Source: a virus
Direction: 5' to 3' (one strand)
Virus record (IMG/VR): IMGVR_UViG_3300031975_001146
Span: 1 to 20,085 of that record
Length of the DNA: 20,085 nt
Positions 3,355-11,338 of the stretch are shown here, in pieces (position 1 is the stretch's first letter; each line of letters starts with the position of its first letter). The position numbers were made by a program, and so were the translations under genes. The notes under the pieces are model-generated. The model saw nothing but the letters and a program-made list of their open reading frames with translations. It did no database searches and was not told the DNA's origin.

Positions 3355-3382
3355 TTGACATATACAAGTATATTAGTATATT
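3355..3382 (+). promoter_or_regulatory. Strong rightward (early) promoter
   Basis: A perfect -35 box TTGACA (3355-3360), a 16-base spacer and a TATATT -10 box (3377-3382). Transcription should begin near 3389, leaving a leader of about 48 bases before the first gene at 3437. The spacer contains ATACAAGTAT, a small inverted repeat that could be a regulator site. Near-consensus boxes and no intervening gene mark this as the promoter of the rightward block. Confidence 0.75.
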
Positions 3383-3436: not shown

Positions 3437-3676
3437 ATGACTGAATTATTACTTAAACTATTAGGAAAGCGCGAAGTGAAACGCATTCTTAATTTATGGA
3501 TTAAAGACCAAATTAATGTATGCTTAGAACAAAATGCGCGCATTCAATTAGATAGTACCATATGGATGGAACATTATATTACAACTTCTAAAAAATTCAA
3601 TGAATGCCCAGAGTATTTAATTGATGAACCTTTAGAAGTGGATGATCTTTTTAATTTTATTGGAGGAAAAATATAA
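3437..3676 (+). CDS. Small unknown protein, first gene of the rightward block
   Basis: 79 residues, beginning MTELLLKLLGKREVKRIL. An AAGAGAGAG ribosome site lies just upstream of the ATG, the same leader motif seen before other genes of this block. The N-terminal third is an amphipathic, basic helix; the C-terminal third is acidic (DEPLEVDDLFNF). No Cys cluster, membrane segment or enzyme motif is visible, and I do not recognise the family. Its stop shares one base with the start of the GP88-like gene, so the two are probably translationally coupled. As the first gene behind the strong promoter it is expected to be made early. Confidence 0.75.
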   Translation: MTELLLKLLGKREVKRILNLWIKDQINVCLEQNARIQLDSTIWMEHYITTSKKFNECPEYLIDEPLEVDDLFNFIGGKI

Positions 3677-4371
3677 TGTCATTAATCAAACTACTAACCG
3701 CGCCGCATGGCAGCACTAAAACCAATAAGAGTATGAAATACGGTTTTGCGAATTTCATAATGTATTTATCACCATTTAAAAAAAGCGGCTGGAACACGTG
3801 CGCCGCGGCTACTAAAGGCTGTATAGCTTCATGTTTAGATGAAAGCGGCCGCGGTAATTGGACAGAAAAAAACGGTAAAAAAAATCCGATCCACGAAGCG
3901 CGATTAAAGCGCACGCAATTCTTTTTTAATGATCGCGGCGCGTTTCTTGAACAACTAGATAGAGAGATTAAAAACGGTATTAAATGGGCATTAAAACGCG
4001 ATTTAAAACCCGTTTTTAGGTTAAATGGCACTAGCGATCTACGGTGGGAGAATTACGGTATAATTCAGAAATTTAATGATATTCAATTTTACGATTATAC
4101 TAAACTATGGAACCGCCGCGATTTACCCGATAATTATCACTTAACATTTAGCCGCGCGGAATCTAACCAAAAAGAAACATTAAACGCCGTCGTTAACGGT
4201 TTAAATATTGCGGCCGTGTTTAGACATGAGTTGCCTAAAGAATATTTAGGATTAAAGGTAGTAAACGGCGATAAACACGATTTACGATTTATGGATCCTA
4301 AAAACGTTTGTATTGGTTTAATTGCTAAAGGAAAGGCTAAACATGACACAAGCGGTTTTGTACTTAACTAA
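3676..4371 (+). CDS. GP88-family phage protein
   Basis: 231 residues from the ATG at 3676, preceded by GGAGG in the end of the gene upstream. The sequence matches the pattern I know for the GP88 family (named after a mycobacteriophage gene). It has a Cys cluster C42-x6-C49-x3-C53 within CAAATKGCIASCLDESGRG, then RLKRTQFFF, RLNGTSDL (115-122), FYDYTK (138-143) and a late VVNGDKHDLRFMDP (195-208). The alternating motifs suggest a barrel-like fold. The Cys cluster could bind a metal or an iron-sulfur centre, but it is not the CxxxCxxC of radical-SAM enzymes. The biochemical function of the family is unknown to me. Placement in the early block suggests an activity directed at host or nucleic-acid metabolism (inference). 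Confidence 0.8.
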   Translation: MSLIKLLTAPHGSTKTNKSMKYGFANFIMYLSPFKKSGWNTCAAATKGCIASCLDESGRGNWTEKNGKKNPIHEARLKRTQFFFNDRGAFLEQLDREIKNGIKWALKRDLKPVFRLNGTSDLRWENYGIIQKFNDIQFYDYTKLWNRRDLPDNYHLTFSRAESNQKETLNAVVNGLNIAAVFRHELPKEYLGLKVVNGDKHDLRFMDPKNVCIGLIAKGKAKHDTSGFVLN

Positions 4372-4396
4372 ACAACAAAAAAAGAGAGGTTAAACA

Positions 4397-4681
4397 ATGT
4401 ATACAGCATTTAAAACATGGATAACAGCAACCACGCAACTAAGTAAAAAATCAATAAATAATTATTGCGGCGGTCTTAACAAAATAACGCGCGATTTAAT
4501 CGATGAAAATATGATTAATAATAGTTTGGATGAAATCGAGCAGGTTGAACAGGTTGAGCAGATCAAGGCAGAATATTTTGCAATTGCTAAATATAAAGAG
4601 CAAGACACGCGCGGGCGGAATATGTATAACGCAGCATTTAATAAATATATTTATTTTAGAAAAGAAACCGCGAAACTTTAA
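4397..4681 (+). CDS. Stand-alone domain like the N-terminus of some restriction/HNH endonucleases
   Basis: 94 residues with an AAGAGAGG ribosome site before the ATG. The pattern FKTWITATTQLSKKSINNYCGG, an acidic spacer, then EQDTRGRNMYNAAFNKYIYF resembles the small helical N-terminal domain attached to several bacterial restriction or HNH endonucleases (phage-integrase SAM-like helices, then a TRGNxMYxxAxxxY motif). Here it stands alone: the gene stops right after this domain and no nuclease domain follows in any frame. An internal VEQ repeat (VEQVEQVEQ, residues about 49-57) comes from short tandem DNA repeats. It might bind DNA, or act as a decoy subunit against a host nuclease (inference). 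Family resemblance is from memory and should be tested by profile search. Confidence 0.7.
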   Translation: MYTAFKTWITATTQLSKKSINNYCGGLNKITRDLIDENMINNSLDEIEQVEQVEQIKAEYFAIAKYKEQDTRGRNMYNAAFNKYIYFRKETAKL

Positions 4682-4728
4682 AAAACATGCTTAAAAAAGG
4701 TTTTTTAAATTCATAGCCATACTGATGA

Positions 4729-4774
4729 GCGCGATTAGTTATCGCGCGAAATATCGCCGTTTTTACGGCGGTAT
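4729..4774 (+). repeat. Two adjacent hairpins between early genes
   Basis: The first is GCGCGAT-TAGTT-ATCGCGC (4729-4747), a perfect 7-bp stem. The second is centred on CGCCGT-TTTT-ACGGCG (4755-4770) and extends to about 10 bp through flanking A-T and one G-T pair (4751-4774). No T run follows, so these are not standard terminators. They may stabilise or process the transcript between the gene ending at 4681 and that starting at 4801. A weaker AT-only palindrome lies just before them at 4691-4708. Confidence 0.6.
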
Positions 4775-4800
4775 ATATGGAAACTAAGAGAGGTATTAAA

Positions 4801-5088
4801 ATGACATGTCATATACATGAAAAAATAGATAATGACTGCGTTTTATGCGTTCCTAAAATACAATTAACGAAATTAATTAGATTCAAATTTGAATTTAGTT
4901 TATGCGAAAATATTGACGATTTAATAAATGAGCTTGATGAAATAAAAAAGGAGCTTATTTATTTAAAATCAATAAATGCGGAATATGAACAAGGCGAAAT
5001 AGATTGGCATTTTTTCGATATTGTAACCAATGATAAAAACCTTATAAAAGAGCTTAAAAATAGAGGTTTTTACGATCCTAACGAATAA
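4801..5088 (+). CDS. Small Cys/His-containing unknown protein
   Basis: 95 residues from the ATG at 4801 (MTCHIHEKIDNDC). An in-frame ATG at 4777 exists, but the AAGAGAGG ribosome motif lies between the two and points to 4801. The N-terminus has C3, H4, H6, C13 and C16 (CHIH...CVLC), a possible zinc site. The middle (NIDDLINELDEIKKELIYLKSINAEYEQGE) is a likely coiled coil. The C-terminus (FDIVTNDKNLIKELKNRGFYDPNE) is polar. I do not recognise the family. It lies downstream of two hairpins and upstream of two membrane micro-ORFs in the same transcript. Confidence 0.72.
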   Translation: MTCHIHEKIDNDCVLCVPKIQLTKLIRFKFEFSLCENIDDLINELDEIKKELIYLKSINAEYEQGEIDWHFFDIVTNDKNLIKELKNRGFYDPNE

Positions 5089-5833: not shown

Positions 5834-7684
5834 CTAATCAACCAAACCGTCTAATTCAGTTTCCATTTTACGATATTGTCCATGCCCAATCTTACTAATT
5901 AAGCCTTGTTTTGTCATACGCTCTAGCCAGTTTGATACCGCTGCATTACTACCAAATCCAACCACCGCATCCAGCGCAGCCTTGAACATTTCTCTACTAA
6001 AGTTATGCCCTTCTGTCGCAATCGCCTGCAACACTTTTTCTTCCACTGATTCCTTCGGATCGGTATACCAGAACATTTCATTCTTTGGCAACGGCTTCAA
6101 GTATTCAAAATACAAATCACCATCACTCACATTATGCAACTTGACTCCAACTGGCACGCCATGCAAATCATTCTGACTGCGCACCTTCGTAATCTTCATC
6201 ACCTTTAATCCAGGCAGACGCTGACTACTAGCAAGCTGTACAATGCCATCCAGATGATTCGTGTACGCACTCCCACCCAACATCATACTGACATCAAGCG
6301 GACTCGCTTCACCCAGCTTCTTATGATGCGATACGATTAAGATAGCAACCTTATGCTTATTCTTCAAATTGACCATCGTACGCAATAGGTCCATCACATC
6401 ATCATTCTTGCTCACATTCTTATTCGTACTCGTATACAGATTATCCACCACCAGCACCTCGCATGGATCAAAGGTCAAATTCGCGTCCATTTCTTCCCAC
6501 TTGTCAGTAAACACGTTGTCCTGCCCACTGCTCAAGATACTCAGGTTCTTGTCAAACCGATGCGCTTCCACTGGATACTTATTAACAAAATGCATCGCGG
6601 TCCGCTCGATCAACTGCTTAAAACTCTCGTCCTTCAACTCAAACTGCACATGCATAACCTTCCTAGGCTTTGGTATTCTAAAGCCCAAGAACGGCACACC
6701 TAGAGCCAAACACGTAGACAACTGCAAACTCATCACCGACTTACCTACGTTCGTACCACCTGCAAGGCCCATAATATCCTTCTCAAAAAACAAATCATCA
6801 ATGATAGGCTCTGGCATATTCACAAAGGTTTTGGCAAACTGCGAAGGACTAAAACTGCGCATTCCGCCAATATCCTCTGGTTTATCACCAAACCGCACAC
6901 AGGACGCAAACAACTGATCCAAACTATGACCATCACTAAACCAGTCAGTAAGATCATACCTAGCAGGCTTACCTTCCCACTTCATTACATACAACTCAAC
7001 CTTCTTCCCAAAGAGCCTTTTCGCCAGTTTTTGCGCACCTAGCTCGCCTTTTTCGTCATTATCGTACACAATATATACTTTATTATATTTTGACGGCAAG
7101 GTTATCTCCGCAGGCAGCGCACCCGCACCTGACGTAAATGTCAAGGCGGATGCGCCATTGCAGTATGCGGTGACTAGGTCCTTTTCTCCTTCACAGATCA
7201 CAAGGCTGGAGAGAGGTAGATGCGGAGTCTCAAACACCTTGCATTCTGCGTCACCGAACTGCGGTCCTTTATGAAATTTTACATGATTTTCATTGATTTG
7301 GAACACTAACTGCGCATTCTTCTTATCATCGCGCCTGACACCGATGGGTAGGTCCAGACACTTCTCATTCCACGGCAACTCCAACTCCTCAACCGCTTTT
7401 TGCCAGTGCTGCACAAATGTCGCCCGCGCTTCTGAATATCCGCTCTTTTTGACCTCTTTTGACTCCACTTTGACCTTGGTATTGGTCAATTTATATTCTA
7501 TACGCGGGGTTTGTATCTTCTCTTCGCTGAAATCCCAACTAAATTGGCACTTATGGCAGTAGGCATAATCACCATTGATCTGCACTGTGCCTTGCTTGCG
7601 TGCGGTTCCATCGTCACACTCAGGACACCAGGCACGCTTACCATTATGAGTTATGCGAGAGAAGACATCTGATGCACTCCTCAA
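5834..7684 (-). CDS. Primase-helicase (zinc finger, TOPRIM, RecA-like helicase)
   Basis: 616 residues; primes and unwinds phage DNA at the fork. The domain order is clear. An N-terminal zinc finger has C20, C23, C43 and C46 (WCPEC...YCHKC). A TOPRIM domain has CEGEKD (164-169) and the metal-binding YDND (207-210). A RecA/AAA_25-type ATPase has Walker A GGTNVGKS (309-316), Walker B VLVVDNL (410-416) and a sensor-like VSHHKKLG (451-458). A C-terminal winged-helix-like segment (about 555-605) ends the protein. The layout recalls T7 gp4. The start is a TTG sharing TTGA with the upstream exonuclease stop, with AGGA just before it. It is followed by the iteron-like array, consistent with a replication role. 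Confidence 0.92.
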   Translation of the reverse strand: MRSASDVFSRITHNGKRAWCPECDDGTARKQGTVQINGDYAYCHKCQFSWDFSEEKIQTPRIEYKLTNTKVKVESKEVKKSGYSEARATFVQHWQKAVEELELPWNEKCLDLPIGVRRDDKKNAQLVFQINENHVKFHKGPQFGDAECKVFETPHLPLSSLVICEGEKDLVTAYCNGASALTFTSGAGALPAEITLPSKYNKVYIVYDNDEKGELGAQKLAKRLFGKKVELYVMKWEGKPARYDLTDWFSDGHSLDQLFASCVRFGDKPEDIGGMRSFSPSQFAKTFVNMPEPIIDDLFFEKDIMGLAGGTNVGKSVMSLQLSTCLALGVPFLGFRIPKPRKVMHVQFELKDESFKQLIERTAMHFVNKYPVEAHRFDKNLSILSSGQDNVFTDKWEEMDANLTFDPCEVLVVDNLYTSTNKNVSKNDDVMDLLRTMVNLKNKHKVAILIVSHHKKLGEASPLDVSMMLGGSAYTNHLDGIVQLASSQRLPGLKVMKITKVRSQNDLHGVPVGVKLHNVSDGDLYFEYLKPLPKNEMFWYTDPKESVEEKVLQAIATEGHNFSREMFKAALDAVVGFGSNAAVSNWLERMTKQGLISKIGHGQYRKMETELDGLVD

Positions 7685-8337
7685 AACTTCCTGCGTAGGT
7701 TATACAGCGCACAGCAATGACGAAACGCCTGCGCACCCGCATCCAACTTGTCACGATCGATAACATGCTTATGAAACTTCCCATCTTCCTTACCAAAGCG
7801 CATAATGATACCATATTTCACTTCCGCTTTAGGCTGCGCAGCTTCGTACATCATTGTATATGCACCTAACTGGATCATCATCTCTGGATATGGACCGCCT
7901 TTACTCGTCTTCCAGTCCACCACCACAAGATCACCATCAATCTTACCAATGCAATCCACCGTACCACCAACGCGTAACTCTTCATTTACCAGCGCAAGCT
8001 CCGCAGCAAGTACCTTGAAGTTTGCCTTATCATACCATGTTTTAAATCCAAAGAATGCTTTAAGTGCCTGCTCTTCTTGATTTGGCGTATAATCCCGCGT
8101 ATCTACGTCAAAACCTTGAAGATAACCTTGTATAAGGATATGTGTTAATGTACCTATATCACCCGCTTCTCGCATTACTGCATCTGCATCTTCGCCCTGC
8201 GCTGTGATGCGCTTCGCCCATGCAATCAGCGTATTTTTATTCCATCCTAGCTGGTTATTAATAATAGTAGTCACACTTGCTGCGCGTTTGCCGTCTTTCA
8301 GCACATAGTTTTGACCATGTAACTTTGTTTTACTCAT
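7681..8337 (-). CDS. RecB/Cas4-like PD-(D/E)XK exonuclease
   Basis: 218 residues from an ATG with a GGAGAG ribosome site. The motifs fit the RecB-type nuclease fold: a GTLTH helix with H66, then GGTVDCIG with D128 and VVVDWKTSKG with D141 and K143, followed by a Q-containing helix (MMIQLGAYTMMYE) that is the usual QxxxY motif. The lack of a Cys cluster argues against a true Cas4 with an iron-sulfur centre. Such phage enzymes resect DNA ends for recombination or replication. The gene is coupled by overlaps on both sides: its ATG overlaps the stop region of a tiny membrane gene, and its stop overlaps the primase-helicase start. Confidence 0.85.
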   Translation of the reverse strand: MSKTKLHGQNYVLKDGKRAASVTTIINNQLGWNKNTLIAWAKRITAQGEDADAVMREAGDIGTLTHILIQGYLQGFDVDTRDYTPNQEEQALKAFFGFKTWYDKANFKVLAAELALVNEELRVGGTVDCIGKIDGDLVVVDWKTSKGGPYPEMMIQLGAYTMMYEAAQPKAEVKYGIIMRFGKEDGKFHKHVIDRDKLDAGAQAFRHCCALYNLRRKF

Positions 8338-8464
8338 CGATGTATCTCTCCTTTATTTCGGTTAATATTAAAAGTGTCATACCAAATGCCAAGGTCCAGA
8401 AAAACAATCCTAAACCTAACACTAGTATATTTGCTACCCATTCTGCTATGTCAAACATGATCAT
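8330..8464 (-). CDS. 44-residue membrane protein
   Basis: The frame starts MIMFDIAEWVANILVLGLGL, continues FFWTLAFGMTLLILTEIKER and ends YIDE. A GGAG ribosome site lies 5 bases before the ATG. The start overlaps the stop of the methyltransferase gene (ATGA), and the stop overlaps the exonuclease start by 8 bases, so it fills the gap exactly as a real operon gene would. One long hydrophobic segment (about residues 10-35) with acidic residues before it and a charged tail predicts a single-pass inner-membrane protein. The function is unknown. Confidence 0.72.
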   Translation of the reverse strand: MIMFDIAEWVANILVLGLGLFFWTLAFGMTLLILTEIKERYIDE

Positions 8465-9381
8465 AGTAACTCCTTTTCTTTTATAATTGTGGCAACGGCC
8501 TGCACTACATCCACCGTCACTGCGTTGCCTGCCTGCTTATATCTTTGTGTATCGCTTATCTCGACTACCTTATCATCAATAATACCATACTTATTATGGT
8601 CATCGCTAAAACCCTGCAAACGATTGCATTCAACTGGTGTCAACCTGCGCACATTCGTATGCGTTTCACCATATACAATTTCTTTGTCATGCAGTAATAA
8701 ATTTTCTGAACCATCCTTATAATATCTTGCGCTTATTGTTCTTGCAATCTGTGAATAGTTGGGCCGAAACCGTTGTTCATGTCTTGATGTTTTTGTTTGT
8801 GATTGACCAGCGTTGTTAACACCTTGTTTGATAGGAAATACTTTTGGTCCACGTCCTGCTCCAATATATCCGACAATGAAGACTCTCTGCCTGCTTTGTG
8901 GGATGGAGAAGTTCCTAGAATTAAGTAATTGGAACTCAATGGTATACCCAAGGTTATTAAGAACTCTGAAGATTGTAGTAAATGTGCGTCCATTGTCGTG
9001 GTTAAGTAAACCTTTAACATTTTCGAGTACCAGACATCTGATCGGTCTTTGTTTCTTTCGATAAAAAGATAAAAGCCGTGCAATTTCAAAAAACAGAGTA
9101 CCTCTGGTGTCATCAATTGCTCTTTTTCCAGCCATGCTGAATGACTGGCATGGAAATCCTCCACAAAGGACATCAATGTTATCTGGCGTATCTTTTCCTG
9201 GTCGAATAAGTTTAATGTCATTTAGCTCCTCACTTTCTCTATATTTATATTTATACACCGCGCTGGCATACTTATCTATCTCACTAAAACCTACCCAGTC
9301 AAACTGGTAACCTGCGCGCTTAAAACCTTCGTGAAATCCACCAATTCCACTAAATAAATCAAGCATGTTTAAACCCGACAT
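8461..9381 (-). CDS. C5-cytosine DNA methyltransferase
   Basis: 306 residues from the ATG at 9381 (MSGLNMLDLFSG), with GGTGG upstream; an in-frame TTG at 9405 or the ATG at 9366 are alternatives. All main motifs are present: motif I DLFSGIGGFHEGF (SAM binding), motif IV GGFPCQSFS with the catalytic Cys near residue 78, motif VI LENVKG, motif VIII QSRQRVFIVG, motif IX RRLTPVECNRLQGF and motif X YKQAGNAVTVDVV. The enzyme transfers methyl from SAM to carbon 5 of cytosine, most likely to shield phage DNA from host restriction. The target site cannot be read from the sequence. No matching restriction enzyme gene is adjacent, so it looks like an orphan phage methylase. Confidence 0.95.
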   Translation of the reverse strand: MSGLNMLDLFSGIGGFHEGFKRAGYQFDWVGFSEIDKYASAVYKYKYRESEELNDIKLIRPGKDTPDNIDVLCGGFPCQSFSMAGKRAIDDTRGTLFFEIARLLSFYRKKQRPIRCLVLENVKGLLNHDNGRTFTTIFRVLNNLGYTIEFQLLNSRNFSIPQSRQRVFIVGYIGAGRGPKVFPIKQGVNNAGQSQTKTSRHEQRFRPNYSQIARTISARYYKDGSENLLLHDKEIVYGETHTNVRRLTPVECNRLQGFSDDHNKYGIIDDKVVEISDTQRYKQAGNAVTVDVVQAVATIIKEKELL

Positions 9382-9414
9382 GGTAGCGTCCACCAAGCCA
9401 ACCAATTCAAACAG

Positions 9415-9892: not shown

Positions 9893-10492
9893 TTATCTAT
9901 TTTTAACATTACAAAATTCAGTTGCTTTTTGTTTTTTACATTCAAAAGCAATTCTCCAAATTCGTTTAATTTTTTTCACATCTTTTAATGAAAGTAAAAA
10001 CCAATATCTCAAAGCCATGTCAGTTAAGACACCTGTTATGTCTCCTATCGTTGGTCTATCTGAACGCCAAAAGTTGATAAAGTGTTGTTCCGTTATACCA
10101 TTTAGACAGTTTACACCTACTATTGGAAAAGTAAAAATCAACAATGACTTATCGCGCATTAAATCAAAAACTATTGGAAAAAAATGGTCTGGATAACCAT
10201 AGCTATCTATATCTATAACATCCCACTTTTTCTTATCTGCGCGCATTTGATAGATATAATCAAAACTACTTCCAAATTTTTCCTTTGTCATAGACGTAAC
10301 AGAACCATATTGTGTATAATAAGCAGTTAAATTGCCTTGTCCACCAAATACTTCTAATATCTCTTTATTTTTAAAAAATGATTTAAATAAATCTAACTGT
10401 TGTATTTTTTCTTTTGGGTGATGATATTCATCATCATTATTTTTTTGCTTTTGTCTAATCAATATATGACTATTTTTTGTATGTCCTGTCAT
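9893..10492 (-). CDS. Putative SAM-dependent methyltransferase-fold protein
   Basis: 199 residues from the ATG at 10492, sharing ATGA with the upstream stop. A nucleotide-binding pattern ILEVFGGQGNLTAYY (45-59) is followed by DVIDIDSYGYP (91-101). This pair recalls motif I and the D-x-D-PFG/SYG-type motif IV of Trm1-like tRNA methyltransferases and phage relatives. The C-terminal part (about 140-190) is basic (LKDVKKIKRIWRIAFECKKQK). It may modify RNA or DNA, or use the fold for another purpose. The neighbouring C5-methylase makes a modification theme plausible. The reaction is an inference. Confidence 0.55.
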   Translation of the reverse strand: MTGHTKNSHILIRQKQKNNDDEYHHPKEKIQQLDLFKSFFKNKEILEVFGGQGNLTAYYTQYGSVTSMTKEKFGSSFDYIYQMRADKKKWDVIDIDSYGYPDHFFPIVFDLMRDKSLLIFTFPIVGVNCLNGITEQHFINFWRSDRPTIGDITGVLTDMALRYWFLLSLKDVKKIKRIWRIAFECKKQKATEFCNVKNR

Positions 10493-10869
10493 CAGCTAAA
10501 CTCAGGAAACCGCTCATATGAATAGAACCACTTCCTGCCTTTTGTTTGATTGTTCTTGCCAGTTGTGATTGCCAGACTCAATGCATGCGAATTATCGTAA
10601 GGATAGTATGCAATTATATCTTTTGGTAAAAAGTATACTGCGACTACGTCAATTCGATTCGTATCTTTATACTTGGTCAAACTAACCTCAACCGCAGTAC
10701 CTCTCTTTAATTCCATTACAGTTTTCACCTGCACACGCTTCATCGCACCATTACTTAACTCCACCACTAGGTCCACTTGATCTACATCCACAACAGGCGC
10801 ATAAATATTATATCCTTGGCCGATCAAGTCCTTCTGCACCGCCAGTTCACCCAGCGCACCTTTGTTCAT
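10492..10869 (-). CDS. Small PD-(D/E)XK endonuclease-like protein (QxK type)
   Basis: 125 residues from the ATG at 10869 (MNKGALGELA). The same frame stays open far upstream, but that part overlaps the preceding gene and reads as a shadow, so 10869 is chosen. The nuclease core is compact: E8 in GALGELA, D33 in DQVDLVVE and Q47-V-K49 in KRVQVKT, the order E-D-QxK of PD-(D/E)XK enzymes related to Holliday-junction resolvases and PDDEXK_11-type proteins. The C-terminal half (IDVVAVYFLPKDIIAYYPYD) continues the typical strand pattern of that family. It probably cleaves branched or damaged phage or host DNA. It starts two bases after the neighbour's stop. Confidence 0.72.
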   Translation of the reverse strand: MNKGALGELAVQKDLIGQGYNIYAPVVDVDQVDLVVELSNGAMKRVQVKTVMELKRGTAVEVSLTKYKDTNRIDVVAVYFLPKDIIAYYPYDNSHALSLAITTGKNNQTKGRKWFYSYERFPEFS

Positions 10870-10870
10870 A

Positions 10871-11338
10871 CTATGCAAAAAGCGACTCCATAGGTTGAAG
10901 CTGGCTTTGTTCCATAATATATTTAGGACCATAACCCATATCCTGCATATTAACATCCTGCAAAAGTTGCGTGGATTTTGCTCCACCAAGAATAGTAAAT
11001 GTTGGAAACGATACATGCACCAGAATAAATATATCGCAGTCGTTTGGATTCTTCTTTGTCTTTGCCTGTAGGTATCCAGGATTGTAGGTAGTGGTTTTAA
11101 CATCGACCTTCTTACCTCTAACCTTGAGGTCGTATCCACTATAGTGTGGCCCAATGCTGAGATCGGGATACCTGTTAAAGTATTTACACACTGCGATCTC
11201 ACCACCTGCACCATTGATGTCAGGTTCTAGCTTGCGTGGTCCGCGAGAGATCACTCCATTGTTCTGATTTTGGAGCATCCTCGCTGTTCCTGTCTGGACT
11301 GCTATCTGCGCTTCTAACTGGTTTAGTATTATTTGCAT
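10871..11338 (-). CDS. Second small PD-(D/E)XK nuclease-like protein (DxK type)
   Basis: 155 residues from the ATG at 11338, with AGAGGA upstream; a longer in-frame extension overlaps the preceding gene and has no ribosome support. The core is E47 (GAGGEIAVCKYFN), D70 (YDLKVRG) and D79-V-K81 (KKVDVKTTTYN), matching the fold's E-D-x(n)-DxK pattern. A strand-rich part follows (DCDIFILVHVSFPTFTILGG), as in many small restriction-like nucleases. The start lies within the last 119 bases of the upstream gene in another frame. It may be a repair, degradation or restriction-type nuclease; the substrate is unknown. Confidence 0.65.
   Translation of the reverse strand: MQIILNQLEAQIAVQTGTARMLQNQNNGVISRGPRKLEPDINGAGGEIAVCKYFNRYPDLSIGPHYSGYDLKVRGKKVDVKTTTYNPGYLQAKTKKNPNDCDIFILVHVSFPTFTILGGAKSTQLLQDVNMQDMGYGPKYIMEQSQLQPMESLFA

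Follow-up and report, generated by a model that had tools for sequence, protein, structure and literature searches.

In E. coli McrB, the N-terminal position is occupied by a DNA-binding domain, and this domain in isolation is a monomer (PMC6344862). In the HNH endonuclease VcaM4I, an N-terminal EVE domain serves as the sensor of modified bases, and an inter-domain linker helix holds the HNH dimer inactive (PMC7897488); in EcoWI, the stretch between the sulfur-binding domain (SBD) and the HNH part has been termed a variable linker (PMC7461809). On the phage side, the T4 proteins Ip1, Ip2 and Ip3 inhibit type IV enzymes of the GmrSD kind (PMC12373910). Hammerhead ribozymes in bacteria and prophages flank single genes, including ardA anti-restriction genes (PMC3088659).

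The window analysed here is a 20,085-base stretch of viral DNA (positions 1 to 20,085 of virus record IMGVR_UViG_3300031975_001146). At 4397..4681 on its + strand lies an ATG-initiated ORF whose 94-residue product appears, from profiles, predicted structure and selection, to be a free-standing five-helix domain of the core-binding/SAM-like type. By reciprocal profiles, the same domain stands at the N-terminal side of HNH_2 (PF13391) endonucleases resembling modification-dependent enzymes, including the SBD-containing L026, with FxxW, Y23 and GxxMYxxAxN kept, and it also occupies the N-terminal position of McrB-like AAA+ ATPases (AAA_5, with weak PRK11331 matches; L009, L010 and L037). The phage protein differs from the former in having no HNH part and from the latter in having no AAA+ part. 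Like Ip1 to Ip3, it is a small phage protein, and the job that we propose for it is likewise the blocking of type IV enzymes; the T4 proteins are injected internal proteins, whereas the window protein is a copy of an enzyme domain. In the open literature we found no description of this domain, whether as part of a restriction enzyme or as an inhibitor standing alone, nor of any phage inhibitor of type IV enzymes copied from a domain of an enzyme.

Results

A single-domain gene in a short plus-strand block

Most of the large ORFs of the window lie on the - strand, and the 94-aa gene belongs to a short + strand block. Ahead of this block, a sigma-70-type promoter-like site (TTGACA-16-TATATT; 3355..3382, +) has 11 of 12 consensus matches; this is a consensus match only, promoter-like sites in the region numbering 16 against a mean of 12.6 in shuffles. 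From its + strand position behind this site, the block may be early. It opens with a 79-aa ORF from the ORF list (3437..3676, +), to which family searches assigned no family, followed by a GP88 (PF17338) protein of 231 aa directly upstream of the 94-aa gene (3676..4371, +; E 1.8e-41). A GAGAGG site sits a few bases 5' of the ATG of the 94-aa ORF. The next gene, beyond the RNA element described below, is placed at 4801..5088 (+). In the ORF list its start is given as 4777 (103 aa), but we consider the internal ATG at 4801 the likelier start because it is preceded by GAGAGG and is clear of the RNA element, which 4777 overlaps. Elsewhere in the window, a DNA cytosine-5 methyltransferase was recognized by family and PADLOC searches (8461..9405, -), with which the phage may methylate its own DNA, and two PD-(D/E)XK proteins were recognized by Pfam on the strand opposite to the 94-aa gene, a PDDEXK_5 protein at 10492-11214 and a PDDEXK_1 protein at 7681-8337.

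The 94-aa protein consists of a single domain with the stop codon directly after it. The first-pass annotation had described the product in this way, as standing alone, and the description holds for every phage copy found. The fused nuclease or AAA+ part of a complete HNH/McrB enzyme is absent, the ORF ending after the domain. The protein is weakly basic (net charge +2, pI 8.6). DNA mimics of the Ocr and ArdA type have a strongly acidic, DNA-like surface, and the charge of the window protein does not fit an anti-restriction protein of that type.

Kinship with the N-terminal domains of restriction enzymes

No model in NCBIfam or PADLOC matched the window protein, and the domain is without a Pfam model of its own. 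A sequence search of the PDB returned nothing meaningful; no solved structure contains the domain by sequence. A degenerate DNA pattern, based on the window protein together with a GxxMY motif, led to 9 bacterial loci. Three of these carry the domain in front of HNH_2 as judged by Pfam (L012, L013 and L016), and three carry it in front of a McrB-like ATPase (L009 and L010 above the AAA_5 cut-off; the AAA matches of L015, like those of L033, are below the Pfam cut-offs). L011 and L014 are cut or truncated frames, the former ending at the locus edge with AAA matches at sub-threshold level only and the latter having no Pfam match, and L008 is the domain alone.

Since the loci had been selected by this self-built pattern, two pattern-independent checks were made, with a phage-only and a bacterial-only profile. 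The phage-only profile (A3), composed of four phage proteins, was searched against bacterial genomes at E <= 0.001 and gave matches in 10 of 617 (5/321 and 5/296), all ten in restriction-type enzymes: 9 with HNH_2 by Pfam and 1 McrB-like protein with AAA matches (L015). Neither a recombinase nor a regulator was matched at this threshold among the 617 genomes. These samples were drawn from groups holding the seed genomes, two of which (G001 and G003) are among the 10 matches; the seed G004, where half of the domain is missing, was not matched by the profile. In the opposite direction, the bacterial-only profile, made from 16 bacterial domains, gave the window protein 63.2 bits, while the highest score among 1000 shuffles was 10.3. 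When the GxxMY motif part was removed, the first 64 residues of the protein scored 34.6 bits against 11.2 for the best shuffle. F5, W8, Y23, G73, M76, Y77, A80 and N82 are kept in the window protein, and L017 has V at the F5 column. L013 was excluded from the domain alignments because half of its domain is missing; the A4 alignment also omits L027, L028, L033 and L034, as these are weak, cut or divergent, and does not include L035 or L037 either. At the level of sequence profiles, the nearest cellular relatives found are confirmed as the N-terminal domains of two enzyme groups, the HNH_2 endonucleases and the McrB-like AAA+ restriction ATPases, in line with the earlier proposal that the product resembles a domain fronting bacterial restriction or HNH enzymes.

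Among viruses, scans with the bacterial seeds A2 and A8 gave no match, and a scan seeded with L010 yielded a single match (L047), which is short and weak. A tblastn search with the window protein gave no match in 50,697 phage records or 72,556 plasmids, and searches of phages with the L017 and L012 domains gave none.

Position of the domain in bacterial enzymes

The domain is widespread in the bacteria sampled: the mixed profile A1 matched in 18 of 770 genomes (7/274, 7/296 and 4/200). By Pfam and by reading, these matches are 12 HNH proteins, 4 AAA/McrB-like proteins, 1 tyrosine recombinase and 1 frame with stops, so that 16 of the 18 have the domain joined to an HNH or AAA part. The tyrosine recombinase (L034) is the weakest of them, with E 7.9e-4. 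No intact free-standing copy occurs among the 18 matches in the 770 genomes; the stand-alone bacterial copy, of 95 aa in Neobacillus (L008), is fragment-like.

Two layouts bear on what the domain does. In L026 (1069-2220, -) the order is SBD, domain and HNH, the domain being an extra part between the sulfur-binding and nuclease domains; its SBD matches SBDHga1 (8h0l, E 2e-32) and its HNH part matches VcaM4I (6yex, E 9.3e-25). In L010 the McrB-like gene lies directly before a DUF2357-PDDEXK_7 gene, making a McrBC-like pair. Because of the VcaM4I match and these two layouts, the domain is placed where DNA or modification sensing, or specificity, sits in solved relatives, and by analogy it may sense DNA. 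The window protein is weakly basic, and the net charge is negative in 9 of the 16 enzyme domains; DNA binding by the domain is therefore not obvious. The names given to these enzymes by PADLOC and NCBIfam are weak, falling below the NCBIfam cut-offs, and their type IV status thus rests on homology.

The locus L036 has a domain-like frame with two in-frame TGA stops and, nearby, a 316-aa ORF that by eye resembles a HaeIII-type restriction enzyme.

Predicted structure and likeness to tyrosine recombinases

AlphaFold2 (20 rows) predicted five helices with a mean pLDDT of 94.6 and a pTM of 0.85. A search of restriction enzymes by profile and by predicted structure had been proposed with the first-pass annotation: the profiles did reach such enzymes, and Foldseek against PDB and BFVD returned nothing at E <= 0.001. 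A second look at 10 chains with VIA-align placed XerA (Z 6.5, 80 residues, 3.9 Å), an archaeal Xer protein (Z 6.4, 74 residues, 3.3 Å) and lambda integrase (Z 6.3, 79 residues, 3.1 Å) above BFL1 and Mcl-1 (Z 3.4 and less), the values of 6.3-6.5 being under the level trusted for helical models. The model is thus weakly suggestive of a fold of the tyrosine-recombinase core-binding type. The core-binding (SAM-like) domain of these recombinases may have a similar helix arrangement, and one of the enzyme relatives, L015, scores 25.0 bits with PF02899, above the cut-off of 22.3. The window protein differs in remaining sub-threshold for Phage_int_SAM_1 (PF02899) and Phage_int_SAM_5 (PF13102), where it scores 13.9 and 13.6 bits and the cut-off is 22.3, and the 5 phage records contain no catalytic integrase domain. 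A split tyrosine recombinase was set aside on the ground that PF00589 is absent from 5 of 5 phage records, which may be fragments.

Phage copies and selection

The phage copies are those of the window, L001, L002, L003 and L017, all free-standing and 94-137 aa long. L001 is not independent, since it is 99.98% identical to the window over 4,699 bp. The L017 copy, of 137 aa and 37% identical, stands in an unrelated phage. Between the window and L002, dS is 0.62 and dN 0.018; between the window and L003, dS is 0.47 and dN 0.037; between L002 and L003, dS is 0.47 and dN 0.046. The ORF is under strong purifying selection. The four distinct phage copies fall on one side of a branch with support 95/95, L017 and others forming long branches; the domain was probably captured once by phages and retained by selection without the nuclease. 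D70, F81 and R/K74 are common to both phage lineages; at these positions the residues of the enzymes are N (15/16), L (16/16) and N (13/16), respectively.

The C-terminus is variable, L003 having an in-frame tail of 32 aa and L017 another tail. The window is 61 bp shorter than L003 between short direct repeats, and its frame therefore stops at 4681; comparison with L003 places a remnant of the L003-type tail at 4676..4715 (+).

An exchangeable slot ending in a hammerhead-like RNA

In L002, the gene forms an island of 90.7% identity (window 4348-4668), and the genes on both sides of it are exchanged. The GP88 proteins of L002 (4405-4983) and the window (3676-4371) have 27% identity and occupy the same locus in otherwise related phages. 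In L059, L060 and L061, with GP88 81-93% identical, the slot holds an unrelated gene of 114-115 aa or 57 aa; L062 ends inside GP88. Such exchange is the pattern of accessory genes. All 5 of the 5 records that contain the free domain, which represent two independent lineages only, also encode GP88; in the L017 phage its gene is found some 1.1 kb from the domain gene, on the opposite strand. A tblastn search with the window GP88 found matches in 264 of 50,697 phage records. Its predicted structure has a pLDDT of 38.4, and a search of the open literature for GP88 names found nothing. As for the host, searches with the terminase, the primase and the L017 portal gave matches below 60% identity, naming no host.

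Downstream of the 94-aa gene, at 4717..4780 (+), folding and alignment indicate a hammerhead-ribozyme-like three-way junction with an open stem I and a CUGAUGA / GAAA core, scoring below the Rfam gathering score. The fold has -29.1 kcal/mol and a z of -4.1. The CUGANGA/GAAA core is kept in six phage copies at the end of the variable gene slot: window 4717-4780 (+), L002 5581-5642, L003 2709-2772, L059 5066-5129, L060 4561-4624 and L061 1993-2056. In the alignment of the six copies, 93% of cells pair, a share that falls to 16-56% after a shift of 1 to 3 columns, and 4 pairs have both sides changed. No Rfam family matched at its gathering score, RAGATH-1-hammerhead reaching 26.3 bits against a cut-off of 56.3.

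Discussion

Based on these findings, we propose a mechanism in which the 94-aa protein, as a free copy of the N-terminal core-binding-type helical domain of HNH_2/McrB-like (type IV-like) enzymes, would act in trans on host enzymes of that kind. The protein could sit on the DNA feature with which the resident N-terminal domain has to make contact; alternatively, it could pack on the nuclease or the ATPase and displace the resident domain. By either route, cleavage would not be triggered and the nuclease would stay off. For a defence-enzyme domain that is present as a free copy, in an accessory gene and under selection, action in trans on those enzymes is, in our opinion, the best explanation, and anti-restriction through competition for DNA or for the nuclease is the mechanism that we tentatively prefer, while rating it somewhat below an even chance. 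DNA binding, the target enzyme and inhibition by the 94-aa protein are what we infer for this scheme. Since the isolated N-terminal domain of McrB is a monomer, competition for DNA would be likelier than competition for subunits, and mixed oligomers less likely, by analogy and provided that the two domains are homologous.

In favor of anti-restriction we count the sequence kinship, the place that the domain takes in the bacterial enzymes, the purifying selection, the accessory-slot pattern and the hammerhead-like RNA 3' of the gene. Against it we count the C5 methyltransferase, which is found in only 2 of 5 records (the others may be fragments), the absence of a PADLOC match and the weak basicity of the protein. 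Because of the 2 of 5 records, a link to m5C protection is not established. The first-pass interpretation of the protein as a decoy is partly supported: the identity of the domain and its free-standing state are borne out, and the decoy role itself is plausible from the position of the domain, the exchangeable slot and the hammerhead neighbor. A more specific scenario, which we regard as rather doubtful as a whole, is that phages took over the N-terminal domain that HNH_2 and McrB-like enzymes have in common and dropped the nuclease, and so obtained a dedicated trans-acting inhibitor able to blunt many enzymes at once, carried in a swap slot of counter-defence genes that is marked by a hammerhead ribozyme.

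A serious rival, nearly as likely as anti-restriction because the effect of the protein on restriction is itself a prediction, is that the core-binding-type fold has been reused as a free DNA-binding regulator, a small factor of transcription, replication or the nucleoid that has nothing to do with host restriction. The protein is small, weakly basic and conserved, and its best second-look fold matches, with Z 6.3-6.5 across 74-80 residues, are the core-binding domains of XerA, an archaeal Xer protein and lambda integrase; however, its sequence kinship is with restriction enzymes, in 10 of 10 matches of the phage-only profile, and an exchangeable accessory gene would be unusual for a core regulator. 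The HNH or AAA part that accompanies the domain in 16 of the 18 bacterial matches, together with the separate PD-(D/E)XK proteins encoded by the phage (10492-11214 and 7681-8337), could also be read to mean that the domain is a specificity subunit supplied in trans to a phage nuclease, for instance in the exclusion of rival phages or in DNA processing. We consider such a split nuclease improbable, since HNH_2 and a tyrosine recombinase are each found in 0 of 5 phage records, and the PDDEXK genes lie on the other strand without adjoining the 94-aa gene.

The presence of GP88 in all 5 free-domain records, including the unrelated L017 phage, and the rarity of the window GP88 among phage records (264 of 50,697) raise the idea that GP88 and the 94-aa protein act jointly in an early function. 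This, too, has little probability in our estimation, as only two independent phage lineages are concerned and L002 has a 27%-identical GP88 swapped in beside the domain gene; with this swap, and with GP88 present without the domain in L059, L060 and L061, an obligate partnership was rejected. Least probable by far is a functionless fragment, eroded or accidental, of a complete restriction enzyme. The variable C-terminus, with the 32-aa tail lost from the window by the 61-bp change, and the fragment-like 95-aa copy in Neobacillus would agree with erosion, but dN is 0.018-0.046 against dS of 0.47-0.62, HNH_2 is absent from 5 of 5 records, and the phage copies, every one of them free-standing at 94-137 aa, form one supported clade. 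Relatives in which the gene is simply an eroded complete nuclease, which the first-pass annotation had named as grounds for abandoning its reading, were therefore not seen.

Returning to anti-restriction, if the 94-aa protein does inhibit these enzymes, it would be an inhibitor built from the defence enzyme's own recognition part. That strong selection maintains solely this part in a phage suggests that the domain functions as a unit, and the phage protein is a ready probe for what the domain recognizes. Of additional note, the 114-115-aa protein that replaces the domain gene in two related phages (L059 4717-5064 and L060 4214-4558) has no Pfam match and contains a GIGPKVLQK stretch that looks helix-hairpin-helix-like by eye.
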